The notes under the pieces were generated by a model that made no database searches, had not been told where the DNA came from, and saw only the letters and a list, made by a program, of their open reading frames with translations. The translations under genes were made by a program, and so were the position numbers. Positions 47,023 through 64,000 of a stretch of 64,000 nucleotides of DNA are shown one piece after another. The DNA lies in the NCBI RefSeq assembly GCF_000012325.1, contig NC_003910.7, forward strand, positions 1,984,001 through 2,048,000, written 5' to 3'. How positions within the stretch are numbered: the stretch's first letter is position 1; each line of letters starts with the position of its first letter. The DNA comes from Colwellia psychrerythraea 34H (GTDB lineage Bacteria; Pseudomonadota; Gammaproteobacteria; Enterobacterales; Alteromonadaceae).

Positions 47023-48456
47023 CTACTTTTTACCTAGTAAAGTAAATATCTTTTTGGCAATATCAGTATTATCTATTTGCCCCTTAAATTGCTCACTTCC
47101 TTTACCAAAGGCATAGACGGGTACATCCACTGCGGTATGTGTACCCGAATGACTAATTGAACCCCAGCCAGTGTTTGTCTTTATGTCTATGATTTTTTTA
47201 ATTGCTATCAAAATAGGTCCTTCAGCTTTAGGTGCCCATTTTTTTTGTTTTTGTTCTGCTGATAACTGTTGGTATATTTTTATACCCTCTTTTTTTGACT
47301 GTAATAACAACGCCATATCATCAGAAGATATCTCAAACTTTAATACCTCATTGACCTGTTGCAGAGTCAGGTTGTTGTTAGCAAAGGTTTTGGCAAACGT
47401 TTCAGGAGAAAGGGGCAGTGTTCGTAGTATCTCAGGTTGCCATAAATATTTACTGTGTATGTCTTTGTTAGACATAGCTGTTTTTCTTCCAATACTGAGG
47501 CCTCCTGTACTATGATCTGCTGTAAGTACAACTAAGGTATCTGGATTTTTAGCGACATACTCTTCTAGAAAAGCGATTGTTTTTGCAAGGTCGTCCATTT
47601 CAGCCATAGCCGCGCCAATATCTCGTCCATGTCCACCCCAATCGATTTGACTGGCTTCAACTAACATAAAGTAACCATTGGGATTTTTAAGCTGTTTTGT
47701 AGCTGCCTTTGTCATTAACGACAAACGATGTTTTTCTTTATCGTCTAGGGCCCAAGGTAAACCGCTATCGCCAAAAAGACCGAGTACCGGTTTATTTAAT
47801 TTCAGTGTTGATAATTGTTTATAATCATCTATATATTGAAAACCAGCTGCTTTAAATTCGTTGACTAAATTACGGTCTTCTCGAATAAAGTATTTCCAGC
47901 CGCCACCAAAATAAACATCGGCTTTTATGCCATTGTCGATATAACTATCAGCAATAGCGTTATAGTTATTTCTGTTTTCATTATGAGAAAGATAAGAGGC
48001 AGGAGTTGCATGATTTATCTGAGAAGTAACAACGACACCTGTTTTTTTACCTTGCTGTTTGGCCCACTCTAAAACAGTCAAAAGCGACTTTTTATTAGTA
48101 TCAACAGATATCGCATCATTATAAGTTTTTACACCTGTCGCTAGCGCTGTTGCAGCAGCAGCTGAATCAGTGATGTACCCAGACATTTTTGCTGGGTAGG
48201 TACTACTTGAGCCGACATAATGTTTATCAAATACACTTTGTTCAATTTCAGCTGTTGTCGGGTCATCATTGAAATAACGATAAGCAGTGGTATAAGCTGG
48301 TCCCATACCATCGCCTACGATCATGATGATATTTTTAGGGCTGCTTTGTGAATTTGGGGCTACTGAGTTATCAGATGAAATATCACTAGACTGTTCAGTG
48401 GTAGTACAAGCACCCAATGTGAGGGTGACAAAAACGGCGGAAAGTAGTTTTTTCAT
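47023..48456 (-). CDS. phoA: Alkaline phosphatase (PhoA superfamily), lipoprotein
   Basis: The 477-residue protein starts with a lipoprotein signal (SAVFVTLTLGACTTTEQ, lipobox LGAC), so it is probably anchored to the outer membrane. It shows the alkaline phosphatase core: IIMIVGDGMGPAYTTA (metal), the nucleophile Ser in GYITDSAAAATALATGVKTY, the metal-binding IDWGGHGRD, VLTADHSTGG and SHSGTHTAVDVPV. It would strip phosphate from nucleotides and other phosphomonoesters. It is the last gene after a TetR-type regulator and a nuclease-family gene on the same strand, 33 bases from the latter, so a nucleotide-scavenging role is likely. Confidence 0.87.
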   Translation of the reverse strand: MKKLLSAVFVTLTLGACTTTEQSSDISSDNSVAPNSQSSPKNIIMIVGDGMGPAYTTAYRYFNDDPTTAEIEQSVFDKHYVGSSSTYPAKMSGYITDSAAAATALATGVKTYNDAISVDTNKKSLLTVLEWAKQQGKKTGVVVTSQINHATPASYLSHNENRNNYNAIADSYIDNGIKADVYFGGGWKYFIREDRNLVNEFKAAGFQYIDDYKQLSTLKLNKPVLGLFGDSGLPWALDDKEKHRLSLMTKAATKQLKNPNGYFMLVEASQIDWGGHGRDIGAAMAEMDDLAKTIAFLEEYVAKNPDTLVVLTADHSTGGLSIGRKTAMSNKDIHSKYLWQPEILRTLPLSPETFAKTFANNNLTLQQVNEVLKFEISSDDMALLLQSKKEGIKIYQQLSAEQKQKKWAPKAEGPILIAIKKIIDIKTNTGWGSISHSGTHTAVDVPVYAFGKGSEQFKGQIDNTDIAKKIFTLLGKK

Positions 48457-48489
48457 TATGTTGGTTCTTTGTGGTTAAATATAATGGGA

Positions 48490-49674
48490 TTAATTCTTTG
48501 TGGTTAGTTCAAGCCAGACCAAGCGGTGATCGGATGACGCTTTTCTATCTTTTATCAACCGGTAGCTTTCGTCGGTTTCTGCAGGCCAAAAGATACCAGA
48601 ATTGTTAATATTTAACCCGCTAACTGAGGGTAAGACATAATCAACTCTCATGCGCCAAAAAGCCGTATGGTACTTACCATGAGCATTTTCAGGACTATGC
48701 TTTTCGCCTGCTTGACTTTGCGGCATAGCATCTTGAATTTTATCATCGTTTAATAACGATGAAATACCGGCTTTAATCGCATTACCATCCACAGTCGTTG
48801 CGTTTAAGTCGCCAAGAATAACAAAGGATTGCTTGGCTTTAATGCCACCCTTATTACCTTTGTCATCGTAAATGTAGCTCGATTTCCCAGGGGATATATA
48901 GTCTTGCCAAAAACGTATTTCATCATGATTACGTTTACCGTTTCTATCTTCTGGACCATCAAATACCGGTGGTGTTGGATGGCTTGCCAGTATGTGAATG
49001 GTTTTACCGTTGACCTCTACGGGCACGTCCCAATGGGACTTTGATGAAAGTCTAAGCTTTTGCCAAACCTGTTGGCTGTACCAGGCTTTATTTGATTCAG
49101 GATCTATAGGCATTAATGCATTTGGCATGTCATGCCATTTAAAGTGTTGGAAAGTTCTGATTTGATCAACGTTTATTGGGTATTTTGATAAAAGAGCCAT
49201 ACCAAAATGACCTGGGAAGTAACCAAAACCATAACCATCGCCGGGCAATTTTCCTTTTTCACCGTTACCATCGATGTCCATACCAGAATTTACTCCGGTA
49301 TTAACAGAGCCTTGGTAATAGTATGGAAAATCAATAGCCGTTTTACCGTTTTGATTTTTATTTAAATAGTGACTGATAAAGGCTTTTAAGTCCTGGTGAT
49401 CATTATTTTGATTATCAAATTCATTTAATAAAATAATATCAGGGTTAACCGTTTGAATGATCTCAGCAATATTTTTTATCTGTTGATGATCACTAGCTAA
49501 AGCTTTGGTAAGTGTTTTTCCGGAGATATTGGGTGCTTCACCACGTTTATGGGCAACGTAATTTAACGCCTCCATACTAACATTGAAGGTCGCAATTTTT
49601 AATGTCGTTTCTTGTGCAATAGTCATAGTGGGGAACACCCAGGCAATTAAGGCAATGATTGAATATTTTTTCAT
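48490..49674 (-). CDS. Secreted endonuclease/exonuclease/phosphatase-family protein
   Basis: The 394-residue protein has a signal peptide (MKKYSIIALIAWVFPTMTIA) and the DNase-I-like fold motifs: KIATFNVSMEAL, the catalytic Glu in IILLNEFDNQ, a His in ILASHPTPP, LGDLNATTVDG, the Asp in RVDYVLPS, and SDHRLVWLEL. It is exported, so it should act on extracellular or periplasmic phosphodiesters such as DNA, RNA or nucleotides. It lies 25 bases downstream of the TetR-type regulator gene and 33 bases upstream of the phosphatase gene, so the three look like one operon. Exact substrate is not shown by sequence. Confidence 0.85.
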   Translation of the reverse strand: MKKYSIIALIAWVFPTMTIAQETTLKIATFNVSMEALNYVAHKRGEAPNISGKTLTKALASDHQQIKNIAEIIQTVNPDIILLNEFDNQNNDHQDLKAFISHYLNKNQNGKTAIDFPYYYQGSVNTGVNSGMDIDGNGEKGKLPGDGYGFGYFPGHFGMALLSKYPINVDQIRTFQHFKWHDMPNALMPIDPESNKAWYSQQVWQKLRLSSKSHWDVPVEVNGKTIHILASHPTPPVFDGPEDRNGKRNHDEIRFWQDYISPGKSSYIYDDKGNKGGIKAKQSFVILGDLNATTVDGNAIKAGISSLLNDDKIQDAMPQSQAGEKHSPENAHGKYHTAFWRMRVDYVLPSVSGLNINNSGIFWPAETDESYRLIKDRKASSDHRLVWLELTTKN

Positions 49675-49699
49675 AATAGATTTTCTTTACGTCAATGAA

Positions 49700-50332
49700 T
49701 TAAATTAAGCCGCAACCACGTAAAATAATGTCTGACAAAAATGCGATAACTTTTTCAACATCATCATCTTCGAAATCAGCTTGATTCATTATGGTTAATA
49801 TTTGGGTGTCAAAATCAGCGTAATGCTGGGTAGAAGACCAAATAAGGAAAATAAGATGAACGGGATCAACATTAACCATCTCACCGTTGTCTATCCACTG
49901 TTGAAATAACTTAGCTTTTTCTCTTACCCATTGGCGTTGGTATGTTCGAGCATAATCTTTCAGGTGTTGCGCGCCTTGGATAACTTCCATGGCATATATC
50001 TTTGATGCTTCAGGGTGTTTAAATGACATTCTTACCTTGGCGGCGATAAATTTTTCTATGGCAACTTTAGGTCCTTCGTTTTGCTCAATATCTCCAATAC
50101 CTTCGTCCCACATTTGAAGTGTATTTTCTAGTACAGCATGATAAATATTCTCTTTGTTTTTGAAATAATAGAGGACATTTGCCTTGGGTAGCTCAGCTCT
50201 ATCAGCAATAGACTGAACTGTTGCACCCCTATAGCCTTGCAGTACAAACTCTGTTCTGGCTGCCGATAGAATCTTAACTTGACTCTTTACTCGAATATTA
50301 CCTGTTTTTTTTATTAGATTAGCACTAGTCAT
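49700..50332 (-). CDS. TetR-family regulator, RutR-like
   Basis: The 210-residue protein has an N-terminal TetR HTH (residues 18-65: VKILSAARTEFVLQGYRGAT, IADRAELPKANVLYYFKNKE). Its ligand-binding domain resembles RutR (QMWDEGIGDIEQNEGPKVA, PEASKIYAMEVIQGA, IFLIWSSTQHYADF). RutR senses pyrimidines such as uracil or thymine and binds TTGACCANNTGGTCAA. Two sites of that form occur in this window, at 54325 and 59822, both in front of nucleoside genes. This protein is thus the best candidate to bind them. It heads an apparent operon with the nuclease and phosphatase genes. A signal such as uracil is inferred. Confidence 0.85.
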   Translation of the reverse strand: MTSANLIKKTGNIRVKSQVKILSAARTEFVLQGYRGATVQSIADRAELPKANVLYYFKNKENIYHAVLENTLQMWDEGIGDIEQNEGPKVAIEKFIAAKVRMSFKHPEASKIYAMEVIQGAQHLKDYARTYQRQWVREKAKLFQQWIDNGEMVNVDPVHLIFLIWSSTQHYADFDTQILTIMNQADFEDDDVEKVIAFLSDIILRGCGLI

Positions 50333-51038
50333 TCTTTAGGCTCGGTGTTCGTTAGTATTTTTATGATTGTTTTTATGTGAATTTTTACGTTTTGTATTGG
50401 TAGAAATTACACATTACTTAAATTGTTATTAGTCAATTTTCTCGTCTTTTTAGAAAAATTACTCATATTATGTTTATTAACAATATCTACAGTGAATGTA
50501 ATTTATTAAACTAAAAAAGTACATCATATCGTTGTTTGATTACAATTTTATTATGAGATGGCTAAAAATTAATGTTTTATAAATATTTTTATAAAATTTT
50601 TTTATTACTTCAAATATTATCAAGTGAACTGCTTTTATTCGTTTACTTTAAGTTATTGTTTTTACTGTAACTGGATTGCTTATGATTATTTATCTGACCG
50701 TTTGGAAAGTTTTTATAACCAAATGTAATTAAACTTGTCTCTTTTCATAACAATATTTTATATAAAAAAGTTATTTATTTTATCTTCTACAAACCTACAA
50801 CTGAAATAACTCGTTACTCTTTGTTTTTAAAGGGTTTGTAATTTACTTGTTGTTTTATTCTTACTGGTCTTACATCTCTATACATTTACATTCTTATCAA
50901 TATGTAAATATTTGTAATGAAACTGACATAAAAGTCTGCTAATTTCAATATAAATAAAAACAGAGCAAATGGTTAACTTTTTATCATTTGTTTCCATAAG
51001 AAAAATAATTATTTAATAACATAACTTAGGAATAACAG
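50333..51038. other. Long AT-rich divergent regulatory region
   Basis: This 706-base, very AT-rich gap separates the TetR operon from a large TonB-dependent receptor gene. No gene is supported. It contains an inverted repeat ATTTACAT/ATGTAAAT (50884-50909) and one degraded match to the RutR-type site (TGACCG-TT-TGGAAA, 50695-50708). The receptor ribosome site AGGAATAA is at its end. Confidence 0.5.
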
Positions 51039-54000
51039 ATGAAAACTCATCGTATCTCACGCATTACTGGCGCGTTAATACTTGCGCTTGGACTCTCTAC
51101 GGCGGCTATGGCTAATGTTACCACCTCTGCAATAAAAGGACGGGTTGCAGGGCCAAGTGGTAATCCTGCGGCTGGATCAATCATAACTATTGTTCACGTA
51201 CCATCTGGTACTACCAAAACGGCAACAGTTAATGAAGCAGGCCTTTTCGTTGCCAAAGGCTTACGTGTAGGTGGACCTTACCGAGTTGTTGTTGATTCAA
51301 ATAAATTTGAGGATACAACTGTAAAAGATATTTATTTAACATTAGGTGAAACATACCCGTTAAGTGTGGCTTTAAACTCAGAAAGCGCATTAGAAACCAT
51401 TGTTGTTACTGGTCGTTCTATCAGTATGCAGTCAGGTGGTACAGGACCAGCAGCTCATTTTAATTCTGACGACTTAAAATATGCCCCGTCAATAAATCGT
51501 GATCTGAAAGATATTGTACGTATTGACCCACGTATTTATATTGATGAAAGTCGCAGCGATGCTATTCAGTGTGGTGGTGGTAACCCAAGATTTAACAGTT
51601 TAACTGTTGATGGCGTTCGTATGAATGATAGCTTTGGTTTAAATGATAATGGTTATCCGACTACACGTATTCCTTTTTCATATGATTCAATTGATCAAGT
51701 CTCGGTTGAACTCGCCCCATTTGACGTAAAGTATGGTGGTTTCACCTCTTGTAACATTAACGCGGTAACAAAATCAGGCACAAATGAAGTGCATGGCAGT
51801 GTCTTTTACGATTACAGCAATGATTCATTGAAAGGTGACAGCATTGAAGGTGAAGACCAAGACAATGGTGATTACGATGATAAGCGCTATGGTTTTAATG
51901 TTGGTTTACCGTTAATTGAAGATACGTTATTTTTATATACCTCTTATGAAAAATTAGATGGTGTGCAATTATTTGAATATTCGCCAATGACTGGAAGCGA
52001 TCCTCAAGTTACACAAGCGGATATTGATCGTGTAAACCAAATATCGATAGATAAATATGGTTATAACGCGGGTGGCACTCCAGCAAGTAAAGCGGTTGAT
52101 GATGAAAAAATTCTTGTTAAATTAGATTGGAATATTAATGAAGATCATCGTGCTAGTTTTGTGTACAACTACAATGATGGTTTTAAATTAGACCAATCTG
52201 ATGAATGGGGTATGACGTTAGACAATCATTTTTATGAGTCAGGCGCAGAATTAAATTCATTCGTAGGCTCACTGAACTCTGATTGGACAGATAATTTCTC
52301 TACTGAAGTAAGAGTAGGCCACACAGAACTCGAAAATAGACAAGAATCCTTAGATGCGGATAGCGGTTTTGGTGAAGTGCAAATTCGTCACAATGGCACA
52401 ACTATCTTTTTAGGTCCGGATGATTCACGCCAATCGAACGAAATGAACTGGGAAACAACTACATTTAAGCTTGCTGGTAGTTACTATTTAGATGAACACA
52501 CCATTACTGCTGGTTATGAGTATGAAAGTTTAACTGCATTTAATTTATTTATGCAACACACCGTAGGTGAGTATCGTTTTGGTTCTATAGATGAATATGA
52601 GAATGGTTTAGCGGATCGTGTTTACTACAATAACTCTGCTGGTACTAATGTGCCAAGTGATGCTAGCCAAGAATTCACTTATGGTTTGCATACTTTCTAT
52701 ATTCAAGATGAATACACATTACCTGATATTGATATGACATTAACGGTAGGTTTACGTTATGACCGTTATACCAGTAGCGATAACCCGCGCTATAACGCTC
52801 AATTTGAAGAACGTTATGGTATCAGAAATGACAAAAATATGGATGGTATTGACTTAATCCAACCCCGCGTAGGTTTTAACTGGGCGGTTCAAGATAATTT
52901 AGAAGTTAGAGGTGGTTTCGGTCTTTATTCTGGCGGTAACCCTAACGTTTGGTTGTCTAACTCATATTCAAACGATGGTTTAGTGAATATTAGTGAACGT
53001 GCCAAGTATCACAAAGATAGTATTGCAATGGTTGGTGAGCAATTTGATTTGTTTAATACACCATCTTCGGACCCTCGAGGCCCAGGTTTTGGTGTACCAC
53101 AAGTGATGGTAGATTCAATTCAAGATCTAGACGAACTAAGTGGTAATGCTTCTGTTAATGCGACTGACCCAAATTTTGAAATTCCATCAGAGTGGAAATA
53201 TGCATTAGGTGCTACTTACACTACTGATAATGATTATATTGTTTCGGCAGATATCCTACATAACCGTAAGCAAGATTCAGCGACTATTCTTGACTATAAT
53301 TTAGAATACGGCGATAAAACATTCGATGGCCGTCCTACCTATAAGGAAGTAACTCATCCTGATGGTGTTAAAAATGTGTCTAATGAATATGTATTAACGA
53401 ATACTAAGAGTGATGGTAGTTCTACAATTATTTCATTAGCGTTAAGCAAAAGTTTTGATTTTGGTTTAGATGCTTCATTTGGTTATTCTTACACCAAGTC
53501 TGAAGATGCTAACCCAATGACTAGTGCGGTTGCAGGATCTAACTACGGAAACTTAGCGACAACGGATGCACTTAATCCGCCAATTACCACATCTAATTAT
53601 GAGATACCGCATCGTTTCACCATGAATATTAGTTATGGTGTTGAGCTCATTGGTGGGCTTGAAACACGCTTTAGCTTATTTGGTCAAGCAAGTGAAGGGC
53701 AAGCTTATTCATTTACTTATGATGATTCAGATGGTGCTTTTGGCGACAATAACTGGAGTGGCGACCGACAGTTAGTTTATATTCCAACCGTTGATGATGC
53801 TAATGTTGTTTATGGACCTGATTTTGATAAAGCAGCATTTGACGCTTTTGTTAGCGCTGAAGGGCTTGCACGTGGTCAAACTACTGGTCGAAACGCACAA
53901 AATGCTGACTGGTATGTAAGCTTTGATATTAAAATTAACCAAGAAATCCCTGGTTTAATTGAAGGACATCGAGGCAATGCATTCTTTATCATTAAAAACG

Positions 54001-54194
54001 TAGGTAATATGATAAATGATGATTGGGGTGTGATGAAGCAAGGTGAGTTTGTTGGTAATCGCATGGTTGAAATGTCGGTTCAAGATGATGGTAAATACCT
54101 TTATGAGGGCTTCAATAGTGGTAATGAAGATCAAAACTTTTACAAAGATGCTTCCGTTTGGGAAATGCGCGTAGGGGTAAGTTACGACTTTTAA
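51039..54194 (+). CDS. Large TonB-dependent receptor with carboxypeptidase-like N-terminal domain (Oar-like)
   Basis: The 1051-residue protein has a signal peptide (RITGALILALGLSTAAMA), then a carboxypeptidase regulatory-like beta domain (residues 28-115: TSAIKGRVAGPSGNPAAG). A TonB-box-like LETIVVTGRS, a plug domain and a long barrel ending VWEMRVGVSYDF follow. This Oar-like layout is common in Alteromonadales and is used for polymer or large-substrate uptake. It lies between the extracellular nuclease/phosphatase operon and the cdd-deoA genes, so nucleoside, oligonucleotide or DNA-fragment uptake is the favoured inference. A strong terminator follows it. Confidence 0.85.
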   Translation: MKTHRISRITGALILALGLSTAAMANVTTSAIKGRVAGPSGNPAAGSIITIVHVPSGTTKTATVNEAGLFVAKGLRVGGPYRVVVDSNKFEDTTVKDIYLTLGETYPLSVALNSESALETIVVTGRSISMQSGGTGPAAHFNSDDLKYAPSINRDLKDIVRIDPRIYIDESRSDAIQCGGGNPRFNSLTVDGVRMNDSFGLNDNGYPTTRIPFSYDSIDQVSVELAPFDVKYGGFTSCNINAVTKSGTNEVHGSVFYDYSNDSLKGDSIEGEDQDNGDYDDKRYGFNVGLPLIEDTLFLYTSYEKLDGVQLFEYSPMTGSDPQVTQADIDRVNQISIDKYGYNAGGTPASKAVDDEKILVKLDWNINEDHRASFVYNYNDGFKLDQSDEWGMTLDNHFYESGAELNSFVGSLNSDWTDNFSTEVRVGHTELENRQESLDADSGFGEVQIRHNGTTIFLGPDDSRQSNEMNWETTTFKLAGSYYLDEHTITAGYEYESLTAFNLFMQHTVGEYRFGSIDEYENGLADRVYYNNSAGTNVPSDASQEFTYGLHTFYIQDEYTLPDIDMTLTVGLRYDRYTSSDNPRYNAQFEERYGIRNDKNMDGIDLIQPRVGFNWAVQDNLEVRGGFGLYSGGNPNVWLSNSYSNDGLVNISERAKYHKDSIAMVGEQFDLFNTPSSDPRGPGFGVPQVMVDSIQDLDELSGNASVNATDPNFEIPSEWKYALGATYTTDNDYIVSADILHNRKQDSATILDYNLEYGDKTFDGRPTYKEVTHPDGVKNVSNEYVLTNTKSDGSSTIISLALSKSFDFGLDASFGYSYTKSEDANPMTSAVAGSNYGNLATTDALNPPITTSNYEIPHRFTMNISYGVELIGGLETRFSLFGQASEGQAYSFTYDDSDGAFGDNNWSGDRQLVYIPTVDDANVVYGPDFDKAAFDAFVSAEGLARGQTTGRNAQNADWYVSFDIKINQEIPGLIEGHRGNAFFIIKNVGNMINDDWGVMKQGEFVGNRMVEMSVQDDGKYLYEGFNSGNEDQNFYKDASVWEMRVGVSYDF

Positions 54195-54254
54195 TGACTT
54201 AATTATTAAGTGTGTTAGCTGACATGAGCTAACGCTATTTGGTCAATCAAAAGT

Positions 54255-54286
54255 AAAGCCATACTGAAAAGTATGGCTTTTTTTTT
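54255..54286 (+). terminator. Intrinsic terminator after the Oar-like receptor
   Basis: AAAGCCATACT and AGTATGGCTTT form an 11-bp stem with a GAAA loop, followed by a run of more T. It separates the receptor gene from the cdd-deoA promoter. Confidence 0.93.
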
Positions 54287-54324
54287 GCTAACAGTATGCC
54301 AGTGTATTTTATCTCATATATAAC

Positions 54325-54352
54325 TTGACCATATGGTCAGCAATGGTATATT
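54325..54352 (+). promoter_or_regulatory. RutR-type operator overlapping the cdd-deoA promoter
   Basis: The palindrome TGACCATATGGTCA (54326-54339) is perfect and fits the RutR consensus TTGACCANNTGGTCAA, including the leading T. TTGACC also reads as a -35 box, and TATATT (54347-54352) as a -10 box at 16 bases distance. A bound protein here would block the promoter, so repression is expected. The TetR gene at 49700 is the candidate regulator. Confidence 0.8.
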
Positions 54353-54392
54353 AATATAATAAATACAGTAAATTATCTAAAGGCATGTAAAT

Positions 54393-54812
54393 ATGGATAA
54401 AAATAAAATAGAGCGTTTTGATGAGCTACTATCAGCGGCAAAAGAAGCTTACCAACGCGCTTATGCTCCTTACAGTAAATTTCATGTTGGGGCGTCAGCA
54501 CTGACTACGGATGGAGACATCGTGAACGGCTGTAATGTGGAAAATGCCTCTTATGGTTTGACCATTTGCGCCGAACGTAACTGTATTAGTCATGCTGTCG
54601 TTCAGGGTAAGCAGATGTTTAAGTTCATCATGATTTACACAGAACAAGACAAGCTGACTCCTCCGTGCGGTGCATGTCGGCAAGTGATTGCTGAATTTTT
54701 CGAGCAATCAGCGCTAGTGGTTGCAGTAAACCACAAAAATGACCGAAAAATCTGGACGGTACAACAATTATTACCAGATGCATTCACCCCAAAAGATTTA
54801 TTAGACTTATAA
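54393..54812 (+). CDS. cdd: Cytidine deaminase
   Basis: The 139-residue protein is a short, homotetramer-type cytidine deaminase. It has the catalytic and zinc motifs (YGLTICAERNCISHAV and PPCGACRQVIAEF) and the substrate-binding start YAPYSKFHVGA. It turns cytidine and deoxycytidine into uridine and deoxyuridine. AAGG lies before the ATG. The deoA gene starts 11 bases after its stop, so the two form an operon downstream of a RutR-type operator. It is smaller than the E. coli dimeric enzyme (294). Confidence 0.95.
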   Translation: MDKNKIERFDELLSAAKEAYQRAYAPYSKFHVGASALTTDGDIVNGCNVENASYGLTICAERNCISHAVVQGKQMFKFIMIYTEQDKLTPPCGACRQVIAEFFEQSALVVAVNHKNDRKIWTVQQLLPDAFTPKDLLDL

Positions 54813-54823
54813 GGATTTAATTC

Positions 54824-56140
54824 ATGTCTGTAACCGCTAAAATCATCCCTCAAGAGATTATTCGACTGAAACGTGATGGTAAAATATTAGATGAACAAGC
54901 GATAAATGGCTTTGTTTCAGGCCTTGTTGATGGCAACTTTTCAGATAGCCAAGTTGGCGCTATGGCCATGGCTATTTTTCAACAGGGTATGTCGATTGAT
55001 GAAAGAGTCAATTTTACCAAGGCTATGATGCGCTCAGGAGAGGTTCTTAGCTGGGAAGGTTTTGATGGTCCTATTGTTGATAAGCATTCAACGGGTGGTG
55101 TCGGTGATAAAGTTAGCTTTATGTTAGCTGCTATCGTTGCTGCTTGCGGCGGTTATGTTCCTATGATTTCAGGGCGTGGTTTGGGCCATACTGGTGGTAC
55201 CGCAGATAAACTTGAAAGTATTGCTGGTTTTAATGTACAACCCAGTATTAGTGAATTTAAACGTATTGTTAAAGACGTTGGTGTTGCCATTATTTCACAA
55301 ACCGATAATTTAGCACCCGCCGATAAACGTTTGTATTCTATTCGTGATGTGACCGCTACAGTTGAATCTATTCCATTGATCACCGCTTCTATCTTATCGA
55401 AGAAGCTTGCCGCAGGACTTGATGTCTTAGTGATGGATGTCAAGGTTGGCAATGGTGCCATGATGAATAATTTAGATGATGCTAAAGCACTTGCACAAAG
55501 CATTACCAGTGTTGCTAACGGAGCGGGCGTTAAAACACAGGCTATTATTACCGATATGAATCAAGTCTTGGGTACTAGTGCCGGTAACGCCATAGAAATG
55601 TATGAAACAGTTAAATACTTAACCGGTAAACAACGAGAGCCGCGCTTACATAAAATTGTGCAAGCACTTGCTAGTGCAATGCTTATTAATACAAATCTAG
55701 CGAGTAGTGAAAAAGATGCCCGTGAGAAAATTGATAAGGTATTAAATTCAGGCTTAGCGGCTGAAAAATTTGATCGCATGGTATCCGCGTTAGGTGGACC
55801 GAAAAACTTTATAGAAAAGCCTTGGGACTCAATGAAAAAGGCAAATGTTATTACTGAGGTGCGAGCATTACAGCATGGTTACATTGCGCAGACGGACACT
55901 CGTGCTATTGGCATGTCGGTGGTTGGTTTAGGTGGAGGGAGAACGGCACCTACACAACAGGTAGATCACAGTGTTGGTTTTGATCGGATATTACCACTGG
56001 GTGTACAAGTGAATCGTGGCGAAGTGATTGCACGTTTACATGCTAAAGATGAAGACTCAGCCAATAGAGCCATTGAGCAATTTAATAATGCGATTACTTA
56101 CTCTGAAGAGAGCCCTGAGCTACCACCGGTAATCTACTAA
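54824..56140 (+). CDS. deoA: Thymidine phosphorylase
   Basis: The 438-residue protein matches DeoA in size and motifs: IVDKHSTGGVGDKVSFMLAA, SGRGLGHTGGTADKLESI, VASLASKKLAAG-like SILSKKLAAGLDVLVMDVK, and the late GGRTAPTQQVDHSVGF. It phosphorolyses thymidine and deoxyuridine to the base plus deoxyribose-1-phosphate. The product is passed to DeoB and DeoC, encoded nearby. The gene lies 11 bases after cdd. Confidence 0.96.
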   Translation: MSVTAKIIPQEIIRLKRDGKILDEQAINGFVSGLVDGNFSDSQVGAMAMAIFQQGMSIDERVNFTKAMMRSGEVLSWEGFDGPIVDKHSTGGVGDKVSFMLAAIVAACGGYVPMISGRGLGHTGGTADKLESIAGFNVQPSISEFKRIVKDVGVAIISQTDNLAPADKRLYSIRDVTATVESIPLITASILSKKLAAGLDVLVMDVKVGNGAMMNNLDDAKALAQSITSVANGAGVKTQAIITDMNQVLGTSAGNAIEMYETVKYLTGKQREPRLHKIVQALASAMLINTNLASSEKDAREKIDKVLNSGLAAEKFDRMVSALGGPKNFIEKPWDSMKKANVITEVRALQHGYIAQTDTRAIGMSVVGLGGGRTAPTQQVDHSVGFDRILPLGVQVNRGEVIARLHAKDEDSANRAIEQFNNAITYSEESPELPPVIY

Positions 56141-56149
56141 CGAATAAAT

Positions 56150-56181
56150 AACCTTAGCAGCTAATATAGATTGCTAAGGTT
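56150..56181. terminator. Bidirectional stem-loop between deoA and tdk
   Basis: AACCTTAGCA and TGCTAAGGTT form a perfect 10-bp stem with a 12-base loop between two convergent genes. On the minus strand a T-rich tract (ATTTATT) follows. Confidence 0.65.
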
Positions 56182-56195
56182 AGTAACCGGCTGCT

Positions 56196-56774
56196 TTATA
56201 GCCAGACGAGTTGCTTAAAATGAGCACGACAAAGGGGCTCATAACGTTCATTGCCACCAACCTCTACTTGCTCACCATTTTGTACCGCTTTACCGTTAGC
56301 ATCTTGTCTGATGACAAAGTTAGCTTTTCGCCCACAGTGACATATCGTTTTTAATTCAACCAATTTGTCAGCCCAAGCGAGCAAAGCGGCACTACCTGAG
56401 AAGGTTTGTCCTAAAAAGTCAGTGCGTATGCCATAAGCCAATACAGGAATATGCAATAGGTCGACAATATCAGTAAGCTGTTTAACTTGTTCAGTTGACA
56501 AAAACTGTGCTTCGTCTATTAGTACACAATCAATTTTTTCAGCTTGATGTTTCTGGTCAACGTCTTTAAATAGATTGATCTTTTCGTCGAATAAAAAAGC
56601 GTCTGCATCAATACCTAATCGTGAAGCAACCTTGCCTTTTGCAAATCTATCATCAATTTTCGCAGTATAAATAGCGGTGACTAAGCCACGTTCTTGATAG
56701 TTATAAGATGATTGTAAAAGGTGAGTTGATTTTCCCGCATTCATCGATGAGTAATAAAAATAAAGTTGTGCCAT
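56196..56774 (-). CDS. tdk: Thymidine kinase
   Basis: The 192-residue protein is a type-II thymidine kinase with a P-loop ([16 protein letters not shown]), the Walker-B-like [12 protein letters not shown], and a zinc ribbon ([11 protein letters not shown] and CRAHF). It phosphorylates thymidine and deoxyuridine for salvage. It is convergent with deoA and stands alone, 132 bases downstream of deoC on the same strand, with a stem-loop between. Salvage and breakdown of thymidine are thus side by side. Confidence 0.95.
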
Positions 56775-56800
56775 TTTTAGTTATTTCTTTTTATGTAGTA

Positions 56801-56843
56801 AATACCTGAGCATTGAAAATTAATGTTTCAACGTTCAGGTATT
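56801..56843 (-). terminator. Stem-loop downstream of deoC
   Basis: AATACCTGA and TCAGGTATT form the outer stem, and TTGAAA/TTTCAA form an inner one. On the minus strand it follows the deoC stop by about 60 bases and is a likely end of the udk-nupC-deoC transcript. T-richness after it is moderate. Confidence 0.55.
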
Positions 56844-56906
56844 GTTGTAATGGGATTTAGTTGCCTGATAATAGCAGCAATAACTTAGCTGTGATTTAGG
56901 GGGGAC

Positions 56907-57680
56907 TTAGTAGTTACTTGATGACTTAGTATTACTTTTATGTCCAAGTGTATCTAATAAGCTGATAAGTAAGCTACTAGCACCAAATCTAAAGTGATTA
57001 GCATCTGCCCACTCATTACCTAATATATTATCTGCTAAATCAAGATAAATAGCGGCATCATCGGCATTTCTAACGCCTCCTGCAGGTTTAAATCCCACCG
57101 CAGTATTTTTATTTTTTATCACGGTTAACATAACTTTAGCCGCTTCAGGTGTGGCATTAATGGCTACTTTACCTGTCGATGTTTTAATAAAGTCGGCGCC
57201 AGCGTTGATAGCAATTTCACTCGCTTTTCGTATCAATTCTTCAGATTTAAGCTCACCTGTTTCAATGATGACTTTAAGCTTAGCATTGCCGCTACAGGCT
57301 TGTTTACATACCTTTACCATATCAAAACCAATTGTCTCATTACCCTGTATTAACGCACGGTAAGGAAAGACTAAATCGACTTCATCAGCGCCATAAGCGA
57401 CAGCAGCTCTTGTTTCTGCCAACGCAATATCAAGATCGTCATTGCCCTGTGGAAAATTAGTGACGGTTGCTATTTTTATGTGAGGTGTTTGTTGCGCTTT
57501 TAACGCCTTCTTAGCCACAGGAATAAAGCGTGGGAAAATACAAATAGCGGCCGTTTCGCCGGCAGGTGATTTAGCTTGACGACAAAGGTCAATAATTTCT
57601 TGGTCAGTCTCCGTGTTGGTAAGACTCGTTAAATCCATTAGTGACAGTGCACGTTGGGCTACTGCTTTAATATCAGACAT
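56907..57680 (-). CDS. deoC: Deoxyribose-phosphate aldolase
   Basis: The 257-residue protein matches DeoC. The Schiff-base lysines and surroundings are visible as [35 protein letters not shown] and [15 protein letters not shown]. It splits deoxyribose-5-phosphate into glyceraldehyde-3-phosphate and acetaldehyde, the last step of deoxynucleoside catabolism. An AGGAA site precedes the ATG. It is the third gene of udk-nupC-deoC, with 53 bases to nupC. Confidence 0.96.
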
Positions 57681-57733
57681 AATGTATTGTTCCTGTGTTA
57701 AATTCTCGTGTATCGTTTTTGTGTATATATTTC

Positions 57734-58978
57734 CTATAAGGAAATAAATATACCAGCAATTGCTGCGCTCATTAGATTGGCTAAAGTAGCTGCAATCATG
57801 GCTCGCATGCCTAATCTGGCAATGTCATGTCGACGGCTCGGCGCCATCGAACCAATGCCACCAAGTAAAATGGCTATTGATGATAAATTAGCAAAACCAC
57901 ATAATGCGAAAGTCACAATGGCTTGAGTTGCAGGGCTTAAGGTATCTTTGATTTCAACAAAATTAACATAGGCAAAGAATTCATTGACGACAACTTTTTG
58001 CCCAATAAAACTACCTGCTTGCAGCATTTCATTGACCGGAACACCAATAACATAAGCAAACGGTGCAAAAAGGTAACCCAAGAAAAATTCTATGGTGATA
58101 TCTTCATAACCGAATAAGCCAAAAACACCGCCAATTAGCGAATTTAACAATGCTATTAAGGCAATGAAGGCAAGTAACATTGCACCGACATTTACTGCCA
58201 ATTTAAGACCTGACGCTGCACCAGAAGCGGCGGCATCAATTACATTTGTTGGTTTTTCATTTTCGTCATCATAATCGACAGACTCGGTAACTATTTTATC
58301 GTGTTCAGTTTCAGGGCAAATGATTTTAGCCATTAATAGTCCACCTGGGGCGGCCATAAATGAAGCGGCAATTAGATATTTTAGTTCAATACCTAGGCCA
58401 GCGTATCCTGCTAAAATAGAACCTGCAACGGATGCTAGGCCACCAACCATGATGGCAAATAGCTCTGATTGGGTCATTTTTGCAATATAGGGACGAATAA
58501 TAAGAGGGGCTTCGGTTTGACCGACAAATATGTTGGCCGTAGCTGAAAGTGACTCAGGTTTGCTTGTCTTTAAAAGCTTTTGTAATGCGCCGCCGATGAT
58601 TTTAATTACCCATTGCATTATGCCAAGGTAATAAAGCACAGCAATTAAAGACGAAAAGAAAATAATATTAGGCAATACTCTGATGGCAAAGACAAAACCT
58701 ACACCATTGTCAAACATAGCATCGGTACCTAAACCACCAAAAAGAAAGTTAATGCCTACTTTTGCACTATCAATAACACTTTGCACGCCATTAGTCATAG
58801 ACAGCAAAACATCTTTACCAAAGGGAACATATAACACAAAAGCGCCAAGCAGCACTTGTAGTGCAAAAGCTAAACCGACTGTGCGAATATTTATTGATTT
58901 TTTTCCACTTGATAACGCGTAGGCGATAGCTAACAAAACGAAAATTCCTAGCACACCTCTTAGAGCACCTAATTCCAT
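57734..58978 (-). CDS. nupC: Concentrative nucleoside transporter, NupC family
   Basis: The 414-residue inner-membrane protein has the CNT layout with about ten hydrophobic segments and hallmark motifs: [38 protein letters not shown], and [20 protein letters not shown] near the end. It imports nucleosides using an ion gradient. It lies between udk and deoC, 28 bases from udk, so uptake and catabolism are co-expressed. The sequence does not reveal whether protons or sodium drive it; sodium would fit a marine host but is a guess. Confidence 0.94.
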
Positions 58979-59006
58979 GAATACCTCTTATATTTTATTA
59001 TTATAT

Positions 59007-59657
59007 TTATTGTTGTGGGGGTAATTGTGAAAGTTGTCGAATTTTTGCTTTGATCACCTCAATTGCCATTCTATTTTTACCTCCTCGGGTAATAACAATA
59101 TCAGCCCAAGCTTTAGAGGGTTCAATAAATTGATAATACATTGGCCTAACCGTTGCTAAATATTGGTTAGTGACCGATTCAATACTGCGGTTACGTTCAA
59201 CTAAATCTCGCTTAATTCTTCTAATGAGACATATGTCTAATGGTGTATCCATGTAGACCTTAATGTCAAAACACTCTCTTAATTCCTTGTTAGATAAAAG
59301 TAATATACCTTCAACTAGAATTATTTTAGTGGGTAAAAACTTTTTACTCTCATCGAGCCGGGTATGAGTTTTGTAACAATAAACAGGACTATTAATCATC
59401 TGATTTTCAGTGAGTTTTTTTAAGTGCTCTGATAAAAGTTCGTGTTCAAATGCACTGGGATGATCATAGTTAGTTTGCTCACGCTCTTGCATGGACAAAT
59501 GAGATTGGTCACGATAATAAGCATCTTCATAAATAATAGAAATACCACTGTCACCAAGCTCATCAATAAGCTCATCATGTATTGTTTTGGCAAAAAGAGT
59601 CTTGCCTGAGGCCGAAGGGCCAGCGATAGCAATAATTGTTGGTTTAATTGGTTTCAA
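59007..59657 (-). CDS. udk: Uridine kinase
   Basis: The 216-residue protein starts at a TTG codon at 59657, giving the typical beginning MKPIKPTIIAIAGPSASGKT with the P-loop GPSASGKT. Other family features are IIYEDAYYRDQSHLS, NYDHPSAFEHELL and IILVEGILLLSN, then the lid region IRRIKRDLVERNRSIESV. It phosphorylates uridine and cytidine. It is the first gene of udk-nupC-deoC and is divergent from deoB. The RutR-type operator lies in the shared upstream region. No strong ribosome site precedes the TTG. Confidence 0.93.
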   Translation of the reverse strand: MKPIKPTIIAIAGPSASGKTLFAKTIHDELIDELGDSGISIIYEDAYYRDQSHLSMQEREQTNYDHPSAFEHELLSEHLKKLTENQMINSPVYCYKTHTRLDESKKFLPTKIILVEGILLLSNKELRECFDIKVYMDTPLDICLIRRIKRDLVERNRSIESVTNQYLATVRPMYYQFIEPSKAWADIVITRGGKNRMAIEVIKAKIRQLSQLPPQQ

Positions 59658-59821
59658 TGTTCAGCCTGTAGTTAAAGCAAATATCAATAATTAAGAATTT
59701 TTTACTATCTTGAGCTTTGTTAGTAATTGGCGCAAGATATTCTCTATAGTTTAGATAAATAATCAGCGACAAGATAAAGCTCTATTTACCCTTAATTGTA
59801 AAGATGATAAATTAACACAAC

Positions 59822-59837
59822 TTGACCAGTTGGTCAT
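59822..59837. promoter_or_regulatory. RutR-type operator between udk and deoB
   Basis: TTGACCAGTTGGTCAT has the perfect half-site pair TGACCA-GT-TGGTCA (59823-59836) and fits the consensus TTGACCANNTGGTCAA at all but the last base. It sits 54 bases before deoB and 165 bases before udk, with a TTGACA -35-like box (59843-59848) just after it. One bound regulator could control both directions. A separate inverted repeat, TTTAATCA-TTG-TGATTAAA, lies at 59855-59873. Confidence 0.8.
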
Positions 59838-59890
59838 AGTTTTTGACAAATTATTTTAATCATTGTGATTAAATGTAAAAAGGAAACATT

Positions 59891-61105
59891 ATGGCTCGTG
59901 CAATAATTATAGTTATTGATAGCTTGGGTATCGGTTATTCTCCAGATGCTGTTGATTTTGGTGATGTGGGCGCAAATACGTTTGCTAACCTAGCTCGTGC
60001 TTATTATGAAGAAACAGGTAAAGAGATTTTCTTACCCAACTTATCGGCACTTGGAATGATAAAGGCTTGTGAACAAGCATCTAATCAAACATTTCCTTAT
60101 CAGGGTCAAGAACCAAGTAAAGGTGCTTATGGTTTTGCACAAGAAATAAGTACTGGTAAAGATACGCCCAGTGGTCACTGGGAGATGGCAGGCGTACCTG
60201 TACTTTTTGATTGGGGATATTTTACCGATAAAAACAGTAGCTTTCCCACATCATTAATTGACGATATTAATCGTGAAACGGGTTTTGATGGCATATTAGG
60301 CAATTGTCATGCTTCAGGTACCGAAATTCTTACCCGTTTAGGACAAGAGCATATTGAAACAGGTTTACCGATTTGTTATACCTCGGCCGATAGCGTTTTT
60401 CAAATAGCTGCGCATGAAGAACATTTTGGTTTAGATAACCTCTATAAATACTGTGAAACGGTTCGAGAGTTACTTGGTGATTTAAATATAGGACGTGTTA
60501 TTGCTAGACCCTTTGTAGGAGATAGTGCTGATAACTTTGCTAGAACAGGTAACCGTAGAGATTACTCAGTGTTACCGCCAGCTCCTACGGTACTTGATAA
60601 AATATCACAGGAAGGAACTCATGTTATCAGTGTTGGTAAAATTGCTGATATTTTCGCTCATCAAGGCATTGATGAAAAAACAAAAGCGACTGGGCTCAAT
60701 GCACTTTTTGATGCCACTTTGGATCATATTAATACCGCACAAGACAATTCACTCATTTTCACTAATTTGGTTAATTTTGATCAAGATTTTGGTCATAGAC
60801 GCGATGCTATCGGTTATGCAAAAGAGCTTGAAGCACTAGATGTTCGTATACCTGAGCTCTTTCATGCGATGTCTGCGGAGGATGTACTATTCTTAACCGC
60901 TGATCATGGTTGTGATCCAACATGGCCTGGTACTGAGCATACTCGAGAGTATGTACCTATTATTGCTTATCATCATCAGATTGACTCTGTAAACCTTGGT
61001 AACCGTAAGACGTTCGCTGATTTAGGACAAAGTGTCGCCGAGTTATTTAACGTAGAAGCAATGGACTACGGCACAAGCTTTCTGTCAGAGATATACAGTA
61101 AGTAA
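59891..61105 (+). CDS. deoB: Phosphopentomutase
   Basis: The 404-residue protein matches DeoB of the alkaline phosphatase superfamily. The metal-site motifs are IIVIDSLGIGYSPDA, the phospho-Thr region ISTGKDTPSGHWEMAG, NFDQDFGHRRDAIGY, LFLTADHGCDPTWPGTEHTR and the following EYVPIIAY. It interconverts ribose- or deoxyribose-1-phosphate and the 5-phosphate, linking the phosphorylases to DeoC. AAGGAAA precedes the ATG. It is divergent from udk and followed by a TonB-dependent receptor on the same strand. Confidence 0.96.
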   Translation: MARAIIIVIDSLGIGYSPDAVDFGDVGANTFANLARAYYEETGKEIFLPNLSALGMIKACEQASNQTFPYQGQEPSKGAYGFAQEISTGKDTPSGHWEMAGVPVLFDWGYFTDKNSSFPTSLIDDINRETGFDGILGNCHASGTEILTRLGQEHIETGLPICYTSADSVFQIAAHEEHFGLDNLYKYCETVRELLGDLNIGRVIARPFVGDSADNFARTGNRRDYSVLPPAPTVLDKISQEGTHVISVGKIADIFAHQGIDEKTKATGLNALFDATLDHINTAQDNSLIFTNLVNFDQDFGHRRDAIGYAKELEALDVRIPELFHAMSAEDVLFLTADHGCDPTWPGTEHTREYVPIIAYHHQIDSVNLGNRKTFADLGQSVAELFNVEAMDYGTSFLSEIYSK

Positions 61106-61267
61106 TAAAACAATAAAGTTATAAGTACAGTGAATGGTAGGGGGAAGTTCTACCGCAATTAATTCAATAACCTGTATAAGTTCTACTACACTATAAAACA
61201 TAATAAAAACAAAAGATAAAAAGCATAAAACATAATAAATAACAAAAACAGTTCTGGGAGTAAACAA

Positions 61268-63577
61268 ATGAAAATATTTAAAAAAAGCGTATTGTCACTT
61301 TGTGTGCAGGCGTCAATCATTGCGAGCGTTACTGGTTTCTCTGCTAGTGCCCTAGCAGCAGAAGAAGTGGATAAGAATAAGCTAGAAGTCATTGAGGTTA
61401 CTGCACGTAAACGTGTTGAAAATGTTCAAGAAGTTCCGGTTTCTGTCTCTTCTTTACAAGGTGAAAATCTTGATGCTTACAGCTCTGGGGGGATGGATAT
61501 TCGCTTTATGAGTGCTCGTATTCCAAGTCTTGCGGTAGAGTCCTCATATGGACGAAGCTTTCCCCGATTTTATATTCGTGGTTTAGGTAATACTGATTTT
61601 GACTTAAATGCTTCACAGCCTGTTTCCTATGTCGTGGATGATGTTGTTCAAGAAAATCCAATTTTAAAAGGTTTTCCTGTCTTTGATGTAGAAAGAGTCG
61701 AAGTGCTTCGTGGGCCTCAAGGAACGTTGTTTGGACGTAATACGCCAGCTGGCTTAGTTAAGTTTGATTCAATGAAGCCAACACAGTCTTTTGATGGTTA
61801 TGCTGCAATTTCTTATGGTACTCGTGGCGCAATTGATTCATCAGGCGCAATTGGTGGTGGTTTAACTGATAATTTATCAGTTCGGGTGTCTGCTCTGCAT
61901 CAATCAAAGGGTGACTATATCGATAATAGAGCAGTTGGCTTTGAGAAAAAAGACCAATTAGGTGGTTATGATGATAATGCTGCCCGTATTCAGTTTTTAT
62001 ATGAAGGTAGTGCTTTTAGCGCATTGTTTAATTATCATTTTAGAGACCTTGATGGCTCGCCTATTGTTTTTCATCCCAATATTGCTACTCCTGGGACTAA
62101 TAATATTCGCGGTGACTTTGAAGCTGATGTCGTTTATCAAGATGCAGGTCAATTTGCAACTCAGGATGTATCAACTCAAGGTAGTAGTTTAAAGCTTGAG
62201 TGGGATATTGATGATTACACTGTAACGTCTATCACGGCTTGGGAAAGCGCTGAGATATTTTCTAGAGCTGATGTTGATGGCGGCTATAACGGTTTTCCTC
62301 CTGCAGGTGATGCCAATGCAGTATGGTGGGGGGCTCAAACAGCGGATGAAATTCCTGAGCATGATCAATATACGCAAGAGCTTCGTTTAGCTTCCAATTT
62401 TGCAGGTAAGCTTAATTATCAAGTGGGTCTTTTCTACTTTAGTGAAGAATTAATTATTAATACTTATGATTATTTTACTCGAGATGGTACATCAACACCA
62501 TCTGACCCAGCGCACGGCGCACAGAACGGTGAATCAACACAGTATCAAGATACAACAGCTTGGGCAGTATTTGGCTCTGTTGATTACGATTTCACAGAAG
62601 ACTTAGCAATAACAGTAGGCCTTCGTTACTCTGACGATCAGAAAGACTTTACGGCTGAGTTATTAGATCATCCATTTATACCAGGAGCAGATGGCGGTAA
62701 TTTCTCTGAGTCTGTTGATGTAAGCGATAGCCACGTAAGTTGGGATATTAGCGGTACTTATAAAATAAACAAAAATATAAATTGGTATGCTCGTGTCGCC
62801 AATAGCTTTAGAGCACCAAGCATTCAAGGTCGTGTGCTTTATGACCAAAATGTGAGTGTTGCTGATTCAGAAACGATTACATCGTATGAAACTGGATTAA
62901 AATCTGATGTTTTAGAAGGGAGAGGTAGAGTTAATGCATCCGTCTATTATTTTGATATGAATGATCAACAATTAACGGCAGTAGGTGGAACCTCGAATTC
63001 AAACACATTGTTAAATTCAAATGGTACTATCGGTTATGGTATTGAGCTAGATTCAGAATGGATTCTAACTGATAACATTATTGCTACTTTCAACATCAGC
63101 TACAATAAAACAGAAATTGATGATGACGGTCTAGCCGTTGCGGCTTGTGGTTCTGGTACATGTACTGTAACTGATCCAACCTTCCAAGTTCCAGGCGATT
63201 TTGGCCCAACTACTATGGCGTATATTGACGGTAACAGCTTACCTAATGCACCTGAATGGATTTCAAACTTAACCTTAAGCTACGTAAAAGAGATTGGAGA
63301 TGGAGAGTTTTTTGCGCATACTGATTTAACTTACCGTGGCAAAGTTGATTTCTTTTTATATAGAGCCGAGGAGTTTGAAGGTGAAGCCTTAATAGAAGTT
63401 GGCGCACGTACTGGTTATAACTGGATTTCTGGTGATAATGAGTACGAAGTTTCAGCATTTGTGCGTAACCTTACCGATGAGGAAGTGATTATTGGTGGTG
63501 TTGATTTCAATAATAACTCAGGCATGGTTAACGAAGAGCGTTTTGTTGGCGCAGCATTTAAAGTGTCTTTCTTTTAG
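61268..63577 (+). CDS. TonB-dependent receptor, probable nucleoside-related
   Basis: The 769-residue protein starts after GGGAG with a signal peptide (residues 1-30, ending SALAAEE), a TonB-box-like LEVIEVTARKR, a plug with VERVEVLRGPQGTLFGRNTP, and a barrel ending GAAFKVSFF with a terminal aromatic residue. It imports a ligand across the outer membrane with TonB energy. Its position after deoB and before deoD makes nucleosides or nucleotides the best guess for the ligand. A 162-base gap separates it from deoB, so it may have its own promoter. Confidence 0.85.
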   Translation: MKIFKKSVLSLCVQASIIASVTGFSASALAAEEVDKNKLEVIEVTARKRVENVQEVPVSVSSLQGENLDAYSSGGMDIRFMSARIPSLAVESSYGRSFPRFYIRGLGNTDFDLNASQPVSYVVDDVVQENPILKGFPVFDVERVEVLRGPQGTLFGRNTPAGLVKFDSMKPTQSFDGYAAISYGTRGAIDSSGAIGGGLTDNLSVRVSALHQSKGDYIDNRAVGFEKKDQLGGYDDNAARIQFLYEGSAFSALFNYHFRDLDGSPIVFHPNIATPGTNNIRGDFEADVVYQDAGQFATQDVSTQGSSLKLEWDIDDYTVTSITAWESAEIFSRADVDGGYNGFPPAGDANAVWWGAQTADEIPEHDQYTQELRLASNFAGKLNYQVGLFYFSEELIINTYDYFTRDGTSTPSDPAHGAQNGESTQYQDTTAWAVFGSVDYDFTEDLAITVGLRYSDDQKDFTAELLDHPFIPGADGGNFSESVDVSDSHVSWDISGTYKINKNINWYARVANSFRAPSIQGRVLYDQNVSVADSETITSYETGLKSDVLEGRGRVNASVYYFDMNDQQLTAVGGTSNSNTLLNSNGTIGYGIELDSEWILTDNIIATFNISYNKTEIDDDGLAVAACGSGTCTVTDPTFQVPGDFGPTTMAYIDGNSLPNAPEWISNLTLSYVKEIGDGEFFAHTDLTYRGKVDFFLYRAEEFEGEALIEVGARTGYNWISGDNEYEVSAFVRNLTDEEVIIGGVDFNNNSGMVNEERFVGAAFKVSFF

Positions 63578-63605
63578 CGTTTAAATCTCATCATTTGAGA
63601 AATAA

Positions 63606-63634
63606 AAAAGGGTTAGCATTTTGCTAACCCTTTT
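63606..63634. terminator. Bidirectional intrinsic terminator
   Basis: AAAAGGGTTAGCA and TGCTAACCCTTTT form a perfect 13-bp stem with a three-base loop. T-rich DNA follows and A-rich DNA precedes, so it serves both the TonB receptor and the convergent deoD gene. Confidence 0.93.
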
Positions 63635-63664
63635 CTTTAACACAACGAAAACTGAATTTGAAAG

Positions 63665-64000
63665 CTATAGTACGCTTTCTAATGTAAGTTCCATCATATC
63701 TTTAAACGTAGTTTCTCTTTCTTCAGAAGTAGTTTTCTCACCTGTTTTTATATGATCACTAACGGTCAATACGGTAAGTGCTTTTTTACCATATTCAGCA
63801 GCAACACCATAAAGGCCGGCTGCTTCCATTTCTACCGCTAAAATTCCATACTTTTCCATGGTTGCAAACTTTTCAGGTTGCGGCGTATAAAATAAATCAG
63901 CAGTAAAAATATTACCTACATGTACAGGTTTACCGAGTTTTTCAGCGGTATCAACGACACTTTTTAATAAAGAGAAGTCGGCACAAGCAGCAAAATCTAC
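63665..64000 (-). CDS. deoD: Purine nucleoside phosphorylase, C-terminal part (5' end outside the window)
   Basis: The frame is open to the window edge and gives 111 residues of DeoD. Typical features are [14 protein letters not shown], the substrate-binding [20 protein letters not shown] with the Met-Glu pair, and the catalytic-Asp region [11 protein letters not shown]. It phosphorolyses purine nucleosides to base and (deoxy)ribose-1-phosphate, the partner activity of DeoA for purines. It completes the nucleoside catabolic set in this region. Its promoter and start lie beyond the window. Confidence 0.95.

Follow-up and report, generated by a model that had tools for sequence, protein, structure and literature searches.

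How do Gram-negative bacteria pass fragments of nucleic acids through the outer membrane? Extracellular DNA and RNA are sources of phosphorus, nitrogen and carbon for marine microbes, and the accessible parts of the open-licence literature on their use describe no energised receptor for such fragments. A locus of Colwellia psychrerythraea 34H that bears on this question occupies positions 47,023-64,000 of the stretch of DNA analysed here (64,000 nt; NC_003910.7, 1,984,001-2,048,000), which we call the window. In this island, genes for a TetR-type regulator, two hydrolases (NUC and AP) and two TonB-dependent receptors (TB1 and TB2) stand together with genes for nucleoside uptake, catabolism and salvage. 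The island is real, conserved and functionally coherent, and we consider it fairly probable that it is an inducible locus for the utilisation of nucleic acids and nucleotides under a RutR-type repressor. With one candidate receptor and its presumed partner enzymes, a pair of operators and a probable inducer named, in bacteria with cultured relatives, the question is open to direct testing.

Every gene that the initial annotation had named in this region is confirmed by an open reading frame (ORF) listing combined with profile searches (Pfam, TIGR and NF models). On the reverse strand, tetR (49700-50332), NUC (48490-49674) and AP (47023-48456) are co-directional, with tetR first and gaps of 25 and 33 bp; they likely form one operon. 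TB1 (51039-54194, forward strand) is divergent from tetR across a gap of 706 bp and is followed by cdd (cytidine deaminase, 54393-54812; NF004064, 157.4 bits, cut-off 74) and deoA (thymidine phosphorylase, 54824-56140; TIGR02643, 621.7 bits, cut-off 570.7), both on the forward strand. The next group runs in the opposite direction and consists of udk (uridine kinase, 59007-59657; NF004018, 299 bits, cut-off 180), nupC (nucleoside transporter, 57734-58978; TIGR00804, 474.4 bits, cut-off 442), deoC (deoxyribose-phosphate aldolase, 56907-57680; TIGR00126, 239.6 bits, cut-off 117.3) and tdk (thymidine kinase, 56196-56774; NF003300, 301.9 bits, cut-off 195). Rightward again lie deoB (phosphopentomutase, 59891-61105; NF003766, 554.8 bits, cut-off 256) and TB2 (61268-63577; PF00593 and PF07715). 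Leftward lies deoD (purine-nucleoside phosphorylase, 63665-64000), which is cut by the window end and encodes 234 amino acids (aa) in the genome; an adenosine deaminase gene comes next in the same direction, beyond the window. The island contains no unassigned non-overlapping ORF of at least 90 aa, and hence no SusD-like lipoprotein beside the receptor.

Orthologues of the TetR (at least 59% identity; the next matches drop to 46%) occur in 46 of the 147 genomes of the family. We fetched 46 relative copies, leaving out the window's own, in stretches of 20 kb, a length that limits the counts of later genes; for the TB1 count L039, the second TetR copy of one genome, and L083, at the end of a 4-kb contig, were set aside. 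The order AP-NUC-TetR is kept in 45 of the 46 loci (the exception is L039). The initial annotation had proposed a comparison of gene order in related genomes, in which a failure of the receptors to co-occur with the nucleoside genes would count against joint operation. They do co-occur: TB1 is divergent from the TetR gene in all 44 loci with room for it, and cdd-deoA is present in 39 of 45 (L039 excluded). TB2, which follows deoB in 19 of the 25 relative loci with room, is frequent rather than universal. Of the other genes, tdk and deoC are each found in 31 relative loci (two of the deoC matches are just 37-38% identical), nupC and udk in 30, and deoB in 26. In named genomes, a set that overlaps the 46 loci and is hence dependent on them, and from which 4 of 67 loci under 69% identity were omitted, the counts are 61/63 for NUC, 57/62 for AP, 54/56 for TB1 and 47/51 for cdd-deoA. 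The same picture extends over Colwellia, Cognaticolwellia, Pseudocolwellia, Litorilituus, Thalassotalea, Thalassomonas, Psychrosphaera and other genera.

A link between the regulator and the nucleoside genes is suggested by the operator sites. The two palindromes described in the initial annotation are present at 54326-54339 and 59823-59836, and both contain the exact sequence TGACCANNTGGTCA: the first is part of TTGACCATATGGTCA before cdd (54325-54339) and the second of TTGACCAGTTGGTCA in the udk-deoB intergenic region (59822-59836). In the whole 5.37-Mb genome TGACCANNTGGTCA occurs only at these two places, against a chance expectation of about 0.2 per genome by our own base-composition estimate, and read backwards it has no occurrence. 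The 16-base form with up to 3 mismatches shows no excess over the control genome-wide (381 vs 406 per strand), so that only near-exact sites are informative at this scale. A promoter-like match (10 of 12) before cdd has the left half of TTGACCATATGGTCA as its first hexamer, as would be expected of a repressor site. In 44 TetR loci, TGACC-N4-GGTCA occurs at 69 sites, of which 65 stand no more than 500 bp upstream of cdd, udk, deoB, TB1 or tetR; a control palindrome made by reversing each half has 6 occurrences. The 350 bp preceding udk contain such a strict site in 28 of 30 TetR loci, compared with 2 of 18 loci lacking the TetR (Fisher 9e-9, a value that is uncorrected for relatedness and overstates independence). 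For cdd, the corresponding count is 25 of 39 TetR loci, and the TetR-less set held no cdd. The palindrome alone was rejected as proof that this TetR is acting, since paralogues in other genomes are also found near such palindromes (L089, L091, L093-L096). Control of the nucleoside operons by the island TetR is well supported by sequence, the operator tracking the regulator from locus to locus. The proposal that one TetR governs the island jointly is supported for these operons and would be more tentative for TB1, TB2 and deoD: in this genome there is no strict site in the tetR-TB1 gap, upstream of TB2 or upstream of deoD.

The regulator itself scores 45.8 bits with TetR_N and 155.5 bits with TetR_C_3 (gathering cut-offs 24 and 25), and its best matches among solved structures in a sequence search are RutR structures. 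Its description as RutR-like therefore holds for the RutR-type TetR subfamily but not for RutR itself, because with the RutR equivalog model TIGR03613 it scores 166.5 bits, under the curated cut-off of 368. According to a figure legend in PMC10891134, the uracil site of RutR stacks the base between W77 and W167, with contacts from Q171, Q179' and a water-bridged Y97. Four of these five residues (W77, W167, Q171 and Q179) correspond to W75, W165, Q169 and Q177 of the island TetR, which are conserved in 46, 44, 46 and 46 of the 46 orthologues, respectively. These residues suggest that the TetR likely senses a pyrimidine base; since DeoA yields pyrimidine bases, the most natural candidates for the inducer are uracil and thymine.

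The island TetR thus shares with E. coli RutR, the uracil-sensing repressor of rut, its family, the TetR_C_3 domain, a palindromic site some 16 bp long and, in the uracil pocket, the two stacking tryptophans together with two glutamines. It differs in the equivalog score, in the fifth contact (see below), in the absence of rut genes from the island and in its neighbours, which are a receptor-hydrolase module and genes for nucleoside catabolism. Reconstructions of RutR regulons cover 68 genomes from 13 groups of proteobacteria, and the motif varies by taxon (RegPrecise; PMC5343134). The accessible part of that source gives pyrimidine catabolism as the pathway and connects RutR with neither a TonB receptor nor an EEP enzyme or a phosphatase; part of the island regulon may already be among the RegPrecise table entries. 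Among the papers listed in searches of the open-licence literature, none combines RutR, nucleoside catabolism and a TonB receptor in its title or abstract opening.

As for the enzymes, AP is a PhoA-type alkaline phosphatase (PF00245, 311.8 bits, cut-off 24.4) with a lipoprotein signal, its lipobox being judged by eye, and its nearest solved structure is the cold-active alkaline phosphatase 3a52 (368 bits). NUC is an EEP hydrolase of DNase-I fold, as judged from the family match (PF03372, Exo_endo_phos), the fold and conserved catalytic-type residues, with an N-terminal signal recognised by eye. By sequence it matches no solved structure at E<=1, and its fold matches span nucleases, phosphatases and sphingomyelinases. 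Membership of NUC in the ExeM/NucH family (NF033681) was rejected at 18.4 bits against a cut-off of 300. TB1 is an Oar-like TonB-dependent receptor with a CarboxypepD_reg domain, a plug and an outer-membrane beta-barrel; a sequence search against solved structures gave only two matches (E ~0.6), both to unrelated methyltransferases, and the first two Foldseek matches are YddB and FusA. The FusA-FusC and YddB-PqqL import-and-digest systems resemble the island in combining a large TonB receptor with an exported hydrolase (export being predicted in the island). However, those systems, partner enzymes included, act on protein whereas the island hydrolases are phosphoesterases, and the common fold is silent on substrate. 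Polysaccharide loci of the SusCD type likewise bring together a receptor, exported hydrolases, an inner transporter, catabolism and a regulator; the island resembles them in block composition and differs in having no ORF for a SusD partner and in its substrate class.

A nucleic-acid role of TB1, NUC and AP is likely. The best evidence for NUC and AP working in sequence on nucleic acids is that two genomes (L118, L138) encode them as a single fused ORF, 829 or 831 aa long. The fusion ORF is followed by a gene for a protein with Endonuclease I (PF04231), LTD and PKD-type domains, and nupC plus deoD or deoB lie near; both genomes carry the island too. In one of them, the second TetR copy (L039, 87% identical) is located on the same contig as the fusion locus L118, about 14 kb away, and is flanked on the opposite side by a TB1 relative.

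Parts of this arrangement also occur in genomes without the TetR. Matches to NUC (E<=1e-40) and TB1 (E<=1e-100) are found in 116 and 132 of the 147 family genomes, respectively, and from the 70 genomes that have NUC but lack the TetR we fetched 38 loci. In 22 of them TB1 adjoins NUC, in 18 udk lies no farther than about 2.6 kb from TB1, and in 17 nupC is present nearby. At the order level, NUC (E<=1e-60) occurs in 63 of 247 genomes, and TB1 adjoins it in 7 of 20 fetched loci. From these counts, TB1-NUC looks like the older pair, with the nucleoside-gene link broad in the family and the TetR confined to one part of it. In 10 of the TetR-less loci (L099-L102, L104, L108, L109, L114, L124 and L136), the space between udk and TB1 holds two recurrent ORFs, one of about 290 aa and one of about 320 aa; in L099, the sole locus scanned, the first shows a weak, sub-cut-off similarity to phosphonate-binding proteins, and the second matches no Pfam family.

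In the model that we favour, nucleic acids would first be cut outside the cell, with the ExeM-type and Endonuclease-I domains of the genome as candidates. TB1 would capture the fragments and carry them across the outer membrane with TonB energy, oligonucleotide import being a reasoned prediction, and exported NUC and AP would convert them into nucleosides and phosphate, with the periplasm as the simplest site. NupC would then take up the nucleosides; Cdd, DeoA, DeoD and the neighbouring adenosine deaminase would release the bases; DeoB and DeoC would feed the pentose to central metabolism; and Udk and Tdk would permit salvage. The TetR would repress cdd-deoA, udk-nupC-deoC-tdk and deoB through TTGACCANNTGGTCA, while weaker sites would probably let it repress TB1 and the operon that encodes it; uracil or thymine would be the likely inducer. 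The ExeM-type nuclease and Endonuclease I domains are located at 2735037-2737994 of the genome, apparently in one open frame of 1325 aa that is probably a fused nuclease. Shewanella and other sediment bacteria use DNA by means of extracellular nucleases, nucleotidases and the catabolism of subcomponents (PMC8289736, as far as accessible). In the main text of that source the term 'TonB' occurs 0 times, whereas in the island the nucleoside genes are physically joined to genes for a receptor, for an EEP enzyme and for a phosphatase.

Several observations weigh against this account. In the pocket, the equivalent of RutR Y97 is F in the island TetR and F or I in 42 and 4 of the 46 orthologues, and it stays Y in all 13 sampled paralogues. 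Around the operators, no strict site is present within 350 bp for 14 of the 39 cdd genes accompanied by the TetR, and the region yields 37 promoter-like matches, below the 56.4 obtained from shuffles. The weaker sites of the model were scored with a matrix built from 71 strict sites of the window and its relatives: they lie in the tetR-TB1 gap at 50691-50712 (score 5.9) and 50958-50979 (3.6, 59 bp before the TB1 start). They are outscored by a match at 11156 of the same window (10.0), and with further matches at 51440 (5.0) and 23736 (4.0), such scores evidently arise by chance over 64 kb. As to gene content, three named Colwellia loci with the TetR and NUC have no AP match (L166, L167, L187). 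No TB1 match stands beside NUC in 16 of the 38 TetR-less family loci, nor any nucleoside genes; large ORFs near NUC were scanned in L111 alone of these, where a Tricorn-like protease was found. The same holds for TB1 in 13 of the 20 order-level loci, and nucleoside genes are unmatched in all 20. Receptors in the TB1 slot span 34-96% identity, which may reflect varied ligands. Finally, the top Foldseek match of NUC is a sphingomyelinase and one NUC relative is annotated as an 'esterase-like activity of phytase family protein', so that kinship leaves the NUC substrate undecided.

The last two points lead to the alternative that survives best, although we regard it as unlikely: TB1, NUC and AP may form a general unit for scavenging organic phosphate (phosphodiester or phytate-like), placed under or beside the nucleoside regulon. 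Many phosphoesters serve as substrates of EEP hydrolases and alkaline phosphatases, and NUC relatives are widespread without nucleoside genes. In addition, a direct repeat resembling a PHO box (11/14) is located at 50912-50929 before TB1; against the PHO-box consensus, its score is reached by 4.3% of 300 gap shuffles, a weak signal. PHO scores of at least 11 within 300 bp upstream of TB1 occur in 9 of 44 TetR loci, compared with 16 of 880 shuffles, but in TetR-less loci the signal is 2 of 22 compared with 15 of 440. The excess is mild with the TetR and there is little without it, and we did not adopt PhoB control. A general phosphate unit also fits poorly with udk lying near TB1-NUC even without the TetR (18/38), and with a NUC-AP fusion that adjoins an endonuclease gene, nupC, and deoD or deoB.

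Somewhat less probable still is the reading in which only the nucleoside genes (cdd-deoA, udk-nupC-deoC-tdk and deoB) form the regulon, TB1, NUC and AP being conserved neighbours under separate control. Strict operators do lie in the nucleoside promoters; a strict site is found inside the tetR-TB1 gap in 8 of 45 relative loci, and within 350 bp before TB1 in 1 of 44. However, the spacing of tetR, NUC and AP is operon-like, and the two weak gap sites exceed the 99th percentile of best scores in 200 gap shuffles (0.79). Similar sequences are present in some relatives, a site like the first in the closest one (L038) and a sequence similar to the second in 9 of 46 loci. It is very improbable that both operators are bound instead by a different RutR paralogue (the one at 5172060 or at 4274267 of the genome): the family and the pocket are common to all three, and L104 and L109, which have paralogues of about 40% identity instead of this TetR, carry an exact site before udk, but 4274267 lies near differently shaped sites, TTTACCANNTGGTCAA (when up to 2 mismatches are allowed, 20 kb hold 9 matches at 6 places, against an expectation of 0.21), the locus at 5172060 lacks any island-type site even with 1 mismatch allowed, and operator presence tracks the island TetR.

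With the island taken as an inducible utilisation locus, these paralogues qualify its description in the initial annotation as complete and under one regulator, since two RutR-type TetRs elsewhere in the genome (a fourth match is restricted to the DNA-binding end) accompany ring catabolism of the released bases. The paralogue at 5172060 (L084, 5162000-5181999) stands in a cluster for purine-ring catabolism with allantoicase, OHCU decarboxylase, urate oxidase, amidohydrolases and a marginal Tsx-type channel (28.2 bits, cut-off 27.2). The one at 4274267 (L098 and L085, 4248000-4284499) stands with a dihydropyrimidinase, F420 genes and a clearer Tsx-type channel (60.6 bits). Because the ring-catabolism loci have Tsx-type channels whereas the island has TonB receptors, the contrast suggests that the substrate of TB1 may exceed a nucleoside in size. 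A tentative extension, which we hold to be possible but somewhat doubtful, is that TB1 uses TonB to import fragments of nucleic acids (oligonucleotides or nucleotides) as part of an import-and-digest system and that the three RutR paralogues split nucleic-acid catabolism among themselves: polymer and nucleosides (island, TonB), purine ring (Tsx), and pyrimidine ring (Tsx and an F420-dependent oxidoreductase).

Domain searches of the genome for DHO_dh gave one near-full and one partial match, and hence no obvious dihydropyrimidine dehydrogenase. The gene content of the pyrimidine-ring cluster suggests F420H2-dependent uracil reduction, on which no paper was among those listed in searches of the open-licence literature. 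The cluster also contains a hydantoinase/carbamoylase-type amidase, an LLM F420-dependent oxidoreductase (TIGR03842), NADPH:F420 reductase, and CofC, D, E, G and H.

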